NCBI GenBank assembly: GCA_029817715.1
Contig: JARUPY010000371.1
Location: 62,001 to 126,000, forward strand
DNA length: 64,000 nucleotides
Reading direction: 5' to 3'
Source of the DNA: Melastoma dodecandrum
Taxonomy: Eukaryota > Streptophyta > Magnoliopsida > Myrtales > Melastomataceae
Shown: one piece after another, positions 4,436 through 15,222 of the stretch
Position numbering within the stretch: position 1 is the stretch's first letter
How the letters are laid out: every line of letters starts with the position of its first letter
The notes under the pieces: model-generated
Told to the model about the DNA's origin: nothing
What the model saw: the letters and a program-made list of their open reading frames with translations, nothing else
Database searches by the model: none
Position numbers and translations under genes: made by a program

Positions 4436-4977
4436 TCAAGGGTTGGCCAGCGCCTTCTTCAGAAAGGCGACGATCGGCGACGGCTTCGGCTCCAAGGTCG
4501 CAGCGAGGTCGTTGCCGGACGCGGTCGTTACGTCGACCGAGATTTCTCCCTCGTGCTTCAGAGCGGCGACAGCAAACCGCGAGCTGGCGCGGCGTCGGCA
4601 TCACGCAGACGCCGAATCCGATGTTCTTCTGGAAGCGCAATCGCGCCTGTCCGGCGCATGAATTCCAGCATGCCGTCTGTGCCACCAATATCGGTGAGAT
4701 CGTCGTCATCTCCAGCCAGCTCGCGATGGTCGACGTTTCGCTCACCGGCCAGCCAGTCGCGGTCGCCTCTCTTCAAAGCCCAGGCATCACCATTGCGGAC
4801 GTAATCGCCGCTGTAGTGGCGCCCGGAGAAGTCGAGCATCGATCCGTCCGGCAGGATGTAGCCGCACTCGTCGGGATTGCGTGTGAGGCCGAAGAGCGCC
4901 TTGGCTCGCGCGATCAGGTCCTGATCGAAATTTTCCATCAATAGGCCGAGCCCGACGATAGTCATCCATTCTCTCAT
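4436..4977 (-). CDS. Conserved hypothetical protein, frame-disrupted
   Basis: It begins at the ATG at 4977, five bases after a TAAATA box. The first about 110 codons contain the strongly patterned LTRNPDECGYILPDGSMLDFSG and EFMRRTGAI. Coding then passes to a second frame (MPTPRQLAVCCRR) and a third (EGEISVDVTTASGNDLAA), and ends FLKKALANP with a stop at 4436-4438. The order of blocks matches a plasmid and phage hypothetical family I have seen, of unknown function. Two frame breaks are present. Confidence 0.6.
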
Positions 4978-7920: not shown

Positions 7921-8638
7921 ATGCGCTATCACGAAATCATCAATGAGAAGAACGGCGGGGGTCCCGCTCGCCAGTTCGTCGACATCGACAAGGACGTTGT
8001 CGTCTACCATGCGACGCACGCTGGCGCCGCCCTTGTTCTCTCCAATCGCGACGTGAAGACCTACAACAGCATGGGGACGTGGCTCACATCGAGCCGTGAG
8101 ATGGCTCAGGAGACCTACGGACCGAACGTGAGGGCCTATCACCTACCGAAGGGTCGCTACCTAGCCGTGGCGCAGAACCTGGACTACAGGGCCGTCCTGG
8201 CGAGCTGTTTGCCGCTCATTCGGCAGCACGTCGGCGCAAAACAGGCTGAGCTGATCGGCGCCAATCCGAGCAACGCCGTGAATCTTCGTTTCGTGGCGCG
8301 ATGCAACAAGCGCGCTCGGAAAATGTACCCTGAACTAAACACCCGAGATGCCGTCATCACCATGTTCAACGATGAGGGCGCAATGAATCCGAAGAGCAGC
8401 GCGGCGGAACAGAAAGGTCGGTACCTCGACATCACTGGCAAGACAGCCAATGCGTTCCGCGACGTCCTACTGTCACCGGCCTACATGAAAGCGTGGCGCG
8501 AGAACGCTTGAGAGCGCAGGCTACACCGGTATCGTCTGGGGAGGGCGCACATGGGACGGTAGCGCGCAGAAGTCGAACATCTATCTGGCCTTCCACGCCG
8601 AGGACCTCCATCCGATCGCGGAAGCACCAAAGAGCTGA
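7921..8638 (+). CDS. ADP-ribosyltransferase-fold-like protein, one frame break
   Basis: It begins MRYHEIINEKN. VVYHATHAGAALVL then resembles the first motif of ADP-ribosyltransferases, followed by GTWLTSSREMAQ (a Ser-Thr-Ser-like region). The first frame stops at 8511, but sensible protein resumes one frame over as GYTGIVWGGRTWDGSAQKSN to LHPIAEAPKS, with a TGA at 8636-8638. T4 packages the ADP-ribosyltransferase Alt in its head, which makes the late-type promoter suggestive. The catalytic Glu is not certain, and the fold assignment is an inference. Confidence 0.55.
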
Positions 8639-8644
8639 TTCAGC

Positions 8645-9010
8645 CTAGACGCGCTTCATTTGACGCACAAAGTCAACGAAGTCGATTTGCATGTCCCATA
8701 GCTGTAGTAGAATCTGCTGATTGACTTCGATGAACTGGAAGACTTTCTTCAAGTCCTTGTTAGAGCATGATTGTGTACCGACGATCGATAGGTCTGGTAC
8801 TGTCACGCAAAATTCAGCGTCAGTAGTCGACCCAACCTTGATACGGCAACCGTGTCGAGCACCTCCGCGCGTCGACACCCAAATGACCATAGGCAAGCCA
8901 CTGTTTTTTGGGAAAATGTTCGACATCTCCCAGAGGATGCCAGACGCATCGATCGCGTCCTCGGAGAGGTCATCGGGTAGAGGCTCAGATGCAATCTCGT
9001 TGATGCGCAT
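8645..9010 (-). CDS. Hypothetical late protein with MRxxEI N-terminus
   Basis: 121 residues in an intact frame, beginning MRINEIASEPLPDDLSEDA. It contains GLPMVIWVSTRGGARHGCRI, a block I associate with small phage proteins of unknown function. The start lies 6 nt after TAAATA. The first six residues resemble those of the products at 7921 and 10946. Confidence 0.65.
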   Translation of the reverse strand: MRINEIASEPLPDDLSEDAIDASGILWEMSNIFPKNSGLPMVIWVSTRGGARHGCRIKVGSTTDAEFCVTVPDLSIVGTQSCSNKDLKKVFQFIEVNQQILLQLWDMQIDFVDFVRQMKRV

Positions 9011-14586: not shown

Positions 14587-14618
14587 TTGACGCCCGAAAC
14601 GACGACCCGTTATAAATA
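14587..14618 (+). promoter_or_regulatory. Promoter of the serine-tRNA leader
   Basis: TTGACG (14587-14592), 18-nt spacer, TATAAA (14611-14616). The octamer TATAAATA (14611-14618) is also an exact T4 late consensus, so both host sigma-70 and phage late polymerase could read it. The start would be at or next to the leader ATG (14624). A small GC hairpin (about 14574-14597) overlaps the -35. Confidence 0.7.
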
Positions 14619-14623
14619 GCCTC

Positions 14624-14695
14624 ATGAACATGATCTCCTCATCGTCCAGTTCGTCGAGCACTGCGGGGTTCCGGCTGGTGGGTCTGCGCGCGTGA
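14624..14695 (+). CDS. Poly-serine leader peptide of the tRNA-Ser locus
   Basis: A 23-codon ORF beginning MNMISSSSSSSS. The eight serines are encoded TCC TCA TCG TCC AGT TCG TCG AGC. Five of the six serine codons are used, so this is selection for serine rather than a nucleotide repeat. The ATG lies five bases after TATAAATA. An intrinsic terminator follows the stop by 28 bases, and then four serine-tRNA genes. This is the layout of an attenuation leader peptide. The 11 residues after the serines are unremarkable. Confidence 0.65.
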   Translation: MNMISSSSSSSSTAGFRLVGLRA

Positions 14696-14723
14696 CGTGA
14701 GCTGATCATAACCGGTGATGGAG

Positions 14724-14753
14724 CCCTGGCCGAGAAATCGTCCAGGGTTTTTT
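14724..14753 (+). terminator. Intrinsic terminator (candidate attenuator) before the tRNA-Ser genes
   Basis: Stem 14724-14729 with 14742-14747, plus two inner pairs, followed by TTTTTT (14748-14753). The 3' arm contains TCGTCCAG (14739-14746), which also occurs inside the serine-codon run (14642-14649). The codon run can therefore pair with the terminator 5' arm in place of the normal 3' arm, a possible anti-terminator. Confidence 0.75.
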
Positions 14754-14808
14754 ATTGCCTGCGTTTTGGGAGGGAGGGTAGAAAAGCGAAGTAGTTTCAG
14801 TGTTTTGC

Positions 14809-14896
14809 GGAGCTGTGTGTGAGCTGGTTTAAACAATCGGTCTTGAAAACCGACGTATCCGCGAGGGTACCATCCGTTCGAATCGGATCGGCTCCG
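14809..14896 (+). tRNA. tRNA-Ser (anticodon UGA)
   Basis: Acceptor GGAGCTG pairs with CGGCTCC, with discriminator G73. The anticodon loop CTTGAAA (anticodon 14844-14846) is closed by a 5-bp stem. It has a long variable arm typical of class II tRNAs and a TTCGAAT T-loop with 5-bp stem. CCA is not encoded (CAA follows G73). It reads UCA and, by wobble, other UCN codons. Confidence 0.93.
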
Positions 14897-14920
14897 CAAA
14901 GCACTGAAGCTTGAGAATAC

Positions 14921-15014
14921 AGTGAGTTGGCCGAGCCCGGCTTATGGCGCTGCCCTGGAAAGGCAGTAGGGGGCGCAAGCTCCCTCAAGGGTTCGAATCC
15001 CTTACTCACTGCCA
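14921..15014 (+). tRNA. tRNA-Ser (anticodon GGA), CCA encoded
   Basis: Acceptor AGTGAGT pairs with ACTCACT, with G73, then CCA at 15012-15014. Anticodon loop CTGGAAA (anticodon 14957-14959), long variable arm with GCAA loop, T-loop TTCGAAT. It reads UCC and UCU. Confidence 0.95.
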
Positions 15015-15025
15015 TCAATACTACC

Positions 15026-15118
15026 GGTCGGGTGGCTGAGCAGGTTTAAGGCACCCGTTTGCTAAATGGGCGAGGGGCGAAAGCTCCTCCGTGGGTTCAA
15101 ATCCCACTCCGACCGCCA
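15026..15118 (+). tRNA. tRNA-Ser (anticodon GCU), CCA encoded
   Basis: Acceptor GGTCGGG pairs with TCCGACC (one G-U pair), with G73, then CCA at 15116-15118. Anticodon loop TTGCTAA (anticodon 15061-15063), long variable arm with GAAA loop, T-loop TTCAAAT. It reads AGC and AGU. Confidence 0.95.
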
Positions 15119-15130
15119 TTATACTTACCT

Positions 15131-15222
15131 GGATGGTTGACAGAGAGGCTTATTGTGACGTGTTCGAAGCACGTTGGACCTCGAAAGGGGTTCCGTGGGT
15201 TCAAATCCCACACCATCCTCCA
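15131..15222 (+). tRNA. tRNA-Ser (anticodon CGA), CCA encoded, U73
   Basis: Acceptor GGATGGT pairs perfectly with ACCATCC, and CCA is at 15220-15222. Anticodon loop TTCGAAG (anticodon 15165-15167), long but imperfect variable arm, T-loop TTCAAAT. The discriminator is U (15219) instead of the G73 of the other three and of typical bacterial serine tRNAs. It reads UCG. Confidence 0.9.

Follow-up and report, generated by a model that had tools for sequence, protein, structure and literature searches.

T-box riboswitches sense the charging of tRNA and control transcription through a terminator; they bind the tRNA directly and involve no leader peptide. Transcription of phage tRNA genes is reportedly controlled as well: a 1980 paper by Goldfarb and Daniel deals, by its title, with the transcriptional control of the phage T4 tRNA operon, and in this respect the locus described here is likewise a candidate. 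Its closest likeness is to the trp, his, ilv and phe attenuators which, in the accessible text of PMC1183508, have a short leader ORF with regulatory codons, a leader hairpin, a competing antiterminator and a terminator ahead of the genes. There is also a likeness to the phage tRNAs that counter tRNA-cutting defences, where phage tRNA genes replace host tRNAs lost in infection (accessible parts of PMC11555353 and PMC10264068). Retron-Eco7, for example, degrades tRNA-Tyr, and T5-like phages reportedly withstand it by expressing their own tRNA-Tyr; a strong promoter is reported as well (PMC11555353, in part). Within the accessible parts of PMC11555353 and PMC10264068 we found no mention of a leader or of attenuation. 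Additionally, jumbo phages such as Atu_ph07 (PMC6102473) and AP-J-162 (PMC11242549) appear to be the same kind of phage and carry many tRNA genes; the words leader, attenuat- and promoter are absent from the accessible parts of both papers.

The DNA investigated here, the window, is a 64,000-base stretch, from 62001 to 126000, of a phage contig that is 583,598 bases long and belongs to an assembly of 373 Mb, a size suggestive of a eukaryote. In the phage records searched, the nearest matches to the DNA polymerase of the contig are those of Sinorhizobium phage Phosso (50% identity) and of Agrobacterium phage Atu_ph07 (48%), and on this basis the contig is probably a giant phage similar in kind to Atu_ph07. 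Both of these genomes are shorter than the contig (469 kb and 490 kb, respectively). A near-identity search of phages with the window gave no match, and a distant one gave nothing but tRNA-gene matches among the matches listed (20 of 34 records). PhoH and the downstream ORF, used as baits against viral contigs, found no relative; the DNA polymerase as bait recovered relatives. In total, 264 kb of the contig was read (the window and L003-L022).

An initial annotation of the window, made from its letters, knew of no described tRNA locus like the one at 14587-15222. Our literature search, in which subscription journals were mostly outside coverage, agrees with this, having turned up, among the papers listed, no attenuator of tRNA operons and no leader peptide before phage tRNAs. 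To our knowledge there is no earlier leader-peptide attenuator of tRNA genes. We consider it very probable that this locus is a ribosome-mediated transcription attenuator of a phage tRNA-Ser operon, providing feedback on its own tRNAs. Here we describe the locus and the similar leaders found on the same contig and in other viruses.

The serine leader operon

The elements that the initial annotation had placed in this order, promoter, leader, terminator and four tRNA-Ser genes, are all found at 14587-15222 of the window:

14587..14618, + strand: promoter of the tRNA operon, TTGAC-N19-TATAAATA (TTGAC 14587-14591, TATAAATA 14611-14618)
14624..14695, + strand: leader ORF of 23 codons, MNMISSSSSSSSTAGFRLVGLRA (from the sequence)
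14630..14709, + strand: predicted leader hairpin (1:2), in which the Ser run pairs with the end of the leader ORF and bases beyond (RNA fold)
14636..14659, + strand: eight consecutive Ser codons, the putative regulatory codons (from the sequence)
14664..14690, + strand: antiterminator segment (region 2) predicted to pair with the 5' arm of the terminator (duplex prediction and eye)
14721..14753, + strand: intrinsic terminator, GAGCCCTGGCCGAGAAATCGTCCAGGG and a T run (stem -17.9 kcal/mol)
14809..14897, + strand: tRNA-Ser (UGA) (ARAGORN)
14921..15014, + strand: tRNA-Ser (GGA) (ARAGORN and Rfam tRNA model)
15026..15118, + strand: tRNA-Ser (GCU) (ARAGORN and Rfam tRNA model)
15131..15222, + strand: tRNA-Ser (CGA) (ARAGORN)

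The run reads TCC TCA TCG TCC AGT TCG TCG AGC, eight codons of five of the six Ser types (TCT is absent), just as had been noted, and it holds all of the Ser among the 22 residues after Met (8/22). We take the anticodons UGA, GGA, GCU and CGA jointly to cover all six Ser codons by standard wobble rules. At its cut-off the Rfam tRNA model recognises two of the four genes (GGA and GCU), and no PHROG family was found for the leader ORF. The leader ATG is only six bases 3' of TATAAAT, so the transcript probably starts at or beside the ATG and the mRNA would be leaderless. A simple consensus scan for promoters and terminators missed both the promoter and the terminator of this locus, the former because its rule needs T at position 6 and the box here is TATAAA.

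By itself the Ser run is unexceptional. A second run of eight Ser codons is present at one place elsewhere in the 264 kb (six frames), and 10 of 936 short ORFs equal the leader in Ser richness. It is the pairing of leader with tRNAs that exceeds chance, and this pairing recurs at five loci of the contig and at more elsewhere.

Matching leaders on the contig and in other viruses

When the promoter pattern is relaxed to TTGAC, 18-19 bases and TATAAATA or CATAAATA, with an ATG within the next 9 bases, it is found at exactly five places in the 264 kb, and all five are leaders of tRNA operons. The leaders have 20-31 codons, are rich in codons of the downstream tRNAs and are followed by an intrinsic terminator. 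Besides the Ser leader they are:

Tyr leader MINARAITSYYTIGASATMY, before tRNA-Tyr
Ala-Asn-Phe leader MTKNATFAANAAANFNRPGSGPRAR, before Ala/Asn/Phe tRNAs
Pro leader MNNFAPMPMPPSPRVSHPGC, before tRNA-Pro, with a longer ORF between terminator and tRNAs
Arg-Val leader MNTVVNTSVRRNVVVVRRVVNLRVGVEEVIL, before Arg/Val tRNAs

When the leaders are permuted over the five operons, the true assignment alone (1 of 120) reaches the observed match. ARAGORN identifies 16 tRNA genes, in seven groups, in the 264 kb. tRNA-Met has a TATAAATA box directly 5' and no leader; if a start codon would not be sensed, this is as expected. The single tRNA-Gly call (L022) has no such promoter within the 650 bases read and may be a false positive. 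Scanning the whole assembly with one fixed spacing gave 37 places, against 36 in a reversed control; five of the 37 are on this contig, namely four of the five known leaders and a new site at 311417.

Other features are located close to these operons. Downstream of the tRNA-Tyr operon is a class I aminoacyl-tRNA synthetase (L015:2910-4409, + strand, contig about 188,910 on; tRNA-synt_1, E 6e-66), presumably IleRS-like by motif, a relative of which (35% over 562 residues) is encoded at another leader locus, L190. The Tyr leader also has three Ile codons. Directly 3' of tRNA-Tyr (L015 about 2290-2375) a second tRNA-Tyr-like gene is seen by eye, with the loop CTGTAAA and the end CCTGCCCACCA; neither ARAGORN nor the Rfam model at cut-off calls it. 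Between tRNA-Arg and tRNA-Val (L005 about 4806-4880, - strand) is a tRNA-like element with acceptor and T arms, hardly any D arm and the anticodon loop CTTCGAA (Arg UCG by eye), for which there is no ARAGORN call.

In IMG/VR, promoter plus ATG was found at no fewer than 120 loci, and the pattern with ATGAAYA added at 43 loci, 9 of them shared with the first scan. Among the matches listed are 162 motif matches, including those of the contig, and 39 of these have an ORF of 10-50 codons: 19 non-duplicate ORFs with an array, 17 without an array and 3 duplicates (by the first 12 residues), which were dropped. Among these listed matches the 19 pairs (5 from the contig, 14 from IMG/VR) include nine leaders for which their own array is the best of 19, and their summed score is 38.1 against 6.6 (sd 3.0) when permuted, with none of 200,000 permutations as high. 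For the 14 pairs without the contig, again among the matches listed, none of 100,000 permutations reaches the observed match. Chance as the source of the match is ruled out by permutation. Many of these leaders match their arrays; examples are:

L118 leader ...NILLPLPLLYPLAG, before Pro, Tyr, Leu, Leu, Leu
L159 leader MNIRRHKFHNNRISIS, before Arg, Ile, Arg, His, one gene of unassigned type, Phe, Lys
L170 leader MNTTTSSTTISWSITFG, before Ile, one gene of unassigned type, Thr
L147 and L154 leaders with Glu/Asp, before Glu and Asp tRNAs

Some of the 19 are mismatched, the own array ranking 11 for L118 at 5479, 9 for L146 and 19 (last) for L153. As a control, the ATGAAYA pattern in bacterial and archaeal genomes gave 50 matches and 29 short ORFs, none of which has a tRNA within 700 bases; in viruses 12 of 26 short ORFs do, near-duplicates counted. 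Later out-of-sample scans with a changed box or spacing added at least 185 loci, at least 53 short ORFs and at least 5 arrays, and here the leader/array match has p 0.025 on 5 arrays among the matches listed. The promoter pattern is absent from the whole 595 kb record LR756511; in the 40 kb of it that was read, a looser pattern matches once, at a 49-codon ORF rich in Lys and Arg that has a tRNA-Arg ~1 kb downstream, and this match was left out of the counts. Comparison among L158, L174, L176 and L187 is uninformative because they are identical over 22 codons.

The L118 viral contig (168 kb) carries three promoter-ORF-tRNA units. Near its tRNA genes, L118:1822-2187 and 8629-8905 match tmRNA (E 4e-51) and bacterial RNase P RNA (E 8e-59), the latter a tRNA-processing ribozyme. 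In two other viruses (L100 and L102) the same promoter leads into what is apparently, by eye, a tmRNA-containing transcript, with a tRNA-Arg downstream and no cognate leader.

Two relatives of the home phage carry Ser leaders of their own. The polymerase of L410, on a 54 kb contig, is 64% identical to that of the home phage, and that of G001 (578 kb, with 71 tRNA matches, of which the loci around 30 were examined) is 56% identical. Their leaders, with p-values for G001 that are the best of many ORFs and uncorrected because these leaders were located starting from the tRNAs, are:

L410 leader MIVLSSQQQSQQSSSSSRARGSVLGVEEIAL (opening MIVLSSQQQSQQSSSSS...), before Ser(UGA), Ser(GCU), Ser(CGA), Ser(GGA), Gln, Gln
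G001 leader MTTIISSHSYCYSSSYHSG..., before Ser, Ser, Ser, Cys, Tyr, Tyr, His (p 2.5e-7)
G001 leader MTRRLATLRLKTLRLLKW..., before Arg, Leu, Lys, Trp (p 2.2e-5)
G001 leader MFAVATHIPANFVVGAFAVAMPAVVAPMNQIQPTVAAQF..., before Ile, Val, Gln, Met, Pro, Asn, Ala, Phe, Thr (p 1.4e-5)
G001 leader MNIRANNVLRRRR, before Arg, Arg (p 1.5e-3)
G001 Gly/Glu/Asp leader, weak (p 1.8e-3)

In L410 there are Gln tRNAs beside the Ser tRNAs and Gln codons in the leader, and ~630 bases separate the terminator from the first tRNA. In the alignment of L410 with the window, GCGGGGTTC just past the Ser run is kept, as is the position of the terminator. Three of the eight G001 arrays have no leader, and the strict promoter pattern has no match in G001. 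Three G001 leaders begin ~55-100 bases past the box, away from the transcript start, so a leaderless start is not essential. G001 also contains, at 110,002-110,155 (- strand; L199 about 1498-1655), two tandem tRNAs with the anticodon CUA (amber suppressor-like), a pair that the leader script left out.

Candidates are also found in phages in culture. In Erythrobacter phage XM05, TTGACA-N17-TATACT is followed, at a site with no annotated feature, by a leader:

XM05 leader MFTQTALHLLTQTPLYCQWQYSCSSL, before Ser, Leu, Leu, Leu, Thr, His, Gln, Gln, Ser, Cys, Trp

Twenty of its 25 residues are within the set of the array (p 5e-7, for a single ORF chosen by eye and on the amino acid background of the home contig). 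There is a strong stem and no T run. In Atu_ph07 a 42-codon ORF, annotated as hypothetical protein AUZ95228.1, is ahead of the main array and has a terminator. The composition of this candidate is not convincing (p 0.035; p 0.093 over 42 residues), and the case for it would rest on its predicted antiterminator, for which none of 500 shuffles is as good. Used as a control around 30 of 59 tRNA matches in Phosso and 30 of 31 in Atu_ph07, the leader script gave best p-values of 0.0037 over 20 arrays and 0.018 over 11 arrays, respectively, a slight composition signal.

The initial annotation had counted against its own reading any related phages that keep the tRNAs and not the leader. L410 and G001 have the leaders as well, and appear to keep the leader logic in diverged sequence: the L410 leader stands before four tRNA-Ser and two tRNA-Gln genes and the first G001 leader before Ser, Cys, Tyr and His tRNAs. 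Phosso and Atu_ph07 go part of the way towards the adverse case, as the one match to the home promoter in each record is directly before a tRNA.

Predicted antiterminator pairing and modelled ribosome position

At the Ser locus the RNA of 14611-14760 folds with z -2.44 against shuffles. The best competing segment is predicted by duplex calculation at 14671-14690 (14671-14693 in one calculation), directly 3' of the Ser run, with a second at 14664-14672 by eye. In one calculation 55 of 500 shuffles pair equally well and in another 37 of 500, and a third gives p 0.066, so that, for the locus alone, the predicted antiterminator signal is weak. In equilibrium folding with and without the part covered by the ribosome, as the initial annotation had suggested, termination is 0.99 at first, falls no lower than 0.66-0.82 while residues 5-10 are occupied, and is 0.99 again by residue 12. 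The annotation had seen TCGTCCAG in both the Ser run and the terminator 3' arm and had taken it for the competitor. The duplication is there, the second copy being at 14738-14745 and not at 14739-14746. Attenuation by the Ser leader is the best-supported reading; the role given to TCGTCCAG is probably wrong, with a better segment predicted downstream.

In which direction would such control run? The initial annotation left this question unsettled, having seen that its proposed competitor would be hidden by a ribosome stalled in the run. In a footprint model, whichever of the eight Ser codons the ribosome occupies, the predicted competing segment downstream of the run is left uncovered, and because of this the direction on paper is that of his and ilv, in which shortage and stalling would lead to readthrough.

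To examine the leaders as a group, 23 were chosen by hand: 5 from the contig, 13 from the first viral scans, 4 from G001, and XM05. This set omits L146 and L153 (spurious), the G001 Gly/Glu/Asp leader and L232. By the criterion used 13 of the 23 have an intrinsic terminator; as the other 10 have none, the mechanism cannot be identical everywhere. Taken together, the 13 leaders form a stronger best duplex with the 5' arm of the terminator than their shuffled versions do (Fisher p 8e-9), and this is also found in the 8 that are off the contig (Fisher p 9.5e-6).

Fifteen leaders with a terminator, these 13 together with L410 and Atu_ph07, make up the set for a ribosome model; for the G001 Ser leader the first of two tandem terminators was used. 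The number of shuffles out of 500 that pair as well is 0 for Pro and L183, as for Atu_ph07, 2 for L158, 3 for G001 Ile/Val, 5 for Tyr, 6 for L079 and 14 for L410. Two of the 15 are no better than shuffles (L154, 184/500; G001 Arg/Leu/Lys/Trp, 329/500). The duplex has 14 consecutive pairs in Pro and 12 in L183, and the competing segment is at the end of the regulatory codons or just past them. The model masks the RNA as far as 10 bases beyond the A-site codon. In 14 of the 15 leaders a ribosome on cognate codons then gives stronger blocking of the terminator 5' arm than a ribosome at the stop codon, an effect that is partly generic because less RNA is masked; the exception is L190, which runs the opposite way in the model. 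Compared with shuffled leaders, at two codons for each leader, the excess is significant over the 15 (Fisher p 6e-4) but not for Ser (p 0.18) or Tyr (p 0.58) individually. For Tyr the equilibrium model also fails on the Tyr codons themselves, where termination is 0.97, with a dip to 0.72 just one codon earlier. For Ala/Asn/Phe, equilibrium folding of the RNA free of ribosomes does not produce the terminator.

Interpretation and known systems

We infer the following course of events at the Ser locus. RNA polymerase would start at or beside the leader ATG, and a ribosome would load the leader immediately. With ample charged tRNA-Ser the ribosome would pass the whole Ser run and reach the stop codon; the leader hairpin would form, followed by the terminator, and the four tRNA-Ser genes would be off. 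With tRNA-Ser scarce or uncharged, the ribosome would stall within the Ser run and leave about 14664-14690 free to pair with the terminator 5' arm, whereupon the terminator would fail and the tRNA genes would be read. This would be direct feedback, because the leader would read the charged level of the tRNAs made by the operon. The phage would bear several units of this kind, in each of which the leader is rich in the amino acids that its own tRNAs carry, and shortages could come from codon demand, from host tRNA decay or from tRNA-cutting defences. What the sequences show is the layout, its recurrence, the match of codons to tRNAs and, over the group, an antiterminator signal; translation of the leader, the transcript start, stalling, readthrough and a use against the loss of host tRNAs in infection are inferred from these.

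Could the leaders be translated and sense their cognate tRNA, yet act in some other way? Exposure to Rho with polarity, RNA processing, or release of a hairpin that would block tRNA maturation might each serve, with the terminator of the Ser locus incidental or additional. The 10 of 23 leaders that lack an intrinsic terminator would fit such a mechanism, the more so as they include the excellent codon matches L118 at 2512, L159, L170 and XM05. However, 13 of the 23 do have a terminator, with pairing above shuffles as a group, and diverged leaders have a good segment as well (L183, 0/500; one G001 leader, 3/500; L410, 14/500), with the exception of another G001 leader (329/500). On balance we think such a mechanism unlikely. 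It is in our view quite improbable that control is of the opposite sense, in which a stalled ribosome would hide the competing segment and favour termination, and tRNAs would be made only if charged tRNA is abundant. Such control could use TCGTCCAG, which is a partial copy of the terminator 3' arm within the Ser run and could be covered by a stalled ribosome, but a better competing segment is predicted downstream of the run, and in 14 of 15 leaders the model gives stronger blocking of the 5' arm for a ribosome on cognate codons than for one at the stop codon, partly as a generic result of masking less RNA.

It is scarcely credible to us that the leader is untranslated and that an ordinary promoter, a long hairpin and a terminator are all there is, with the Ser run a by-product of a TCG/AGC-rich hairpin. 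The other run of eight Ser codons on the contig and the folding of the region (z -2.44 against shuffles) are what such a by-product might leave, but the leaders of the other operons spell quite different amino acids, and these follow the array, with none of 200,000 permutations as good among the matches listed. The reading as attenuation is supported beyond the Ser locus and, from the sequences compared, appears to extend to a family of operons.

We are evenly divided over a wider proposal, that large phages run a distributed tRNA supply, in which the codon-sampling leader of each operon senses a shortage of its own tRNAs, from any cause, and opens the operon. If this is true, the leader of a mixed array would sample up to about nine amino acids, and loss of any one of them could open the whole array. 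Such operons would be an on-demand answer to tRNA-cutting host defences or host tRNA decay, and the leader peptides a readable record of the tRNA shortages that the phage expects. Leaders that spell their tRNAs would indicate, locus by locus, which shortages the phage senses, and they may be on offer as compact multi-codon sensors. A bench trial is possible because two cultured phages, Erythrobacter phage XM05 and Agrobacterium phage Atu_ph07, carry candidates.

If confirmed, the locus would have no predecessor known to us among leader-peptide attenuators of tRNA genes, and its product and signal would be in direct feedback. A T-box riboswitch was considered and rejected: an Rfam scan of the window and of the four sister loci L005, L015, L016 and L017 at the gathering threshold returns tRNA only, and no conserved stem I or T-box antiterminator. 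With the trp, his, ilv and phe attenuators, as they are set out in the accessible text of PMC1183508, the Ser locus would share the direction of control that is modelled here. It differs from them in that the regulated genes are tRNAs and not biosynthetic enzymes, and in that it is found in a phage. Likewise, by comparison with the amino acid attenuators in the same text, all five leaders on the home contig begin no more than 9 bases from the -10 box, one leader could sample many amino acids to match a mixed array, and the product would act directly on the signal that the leader reads.
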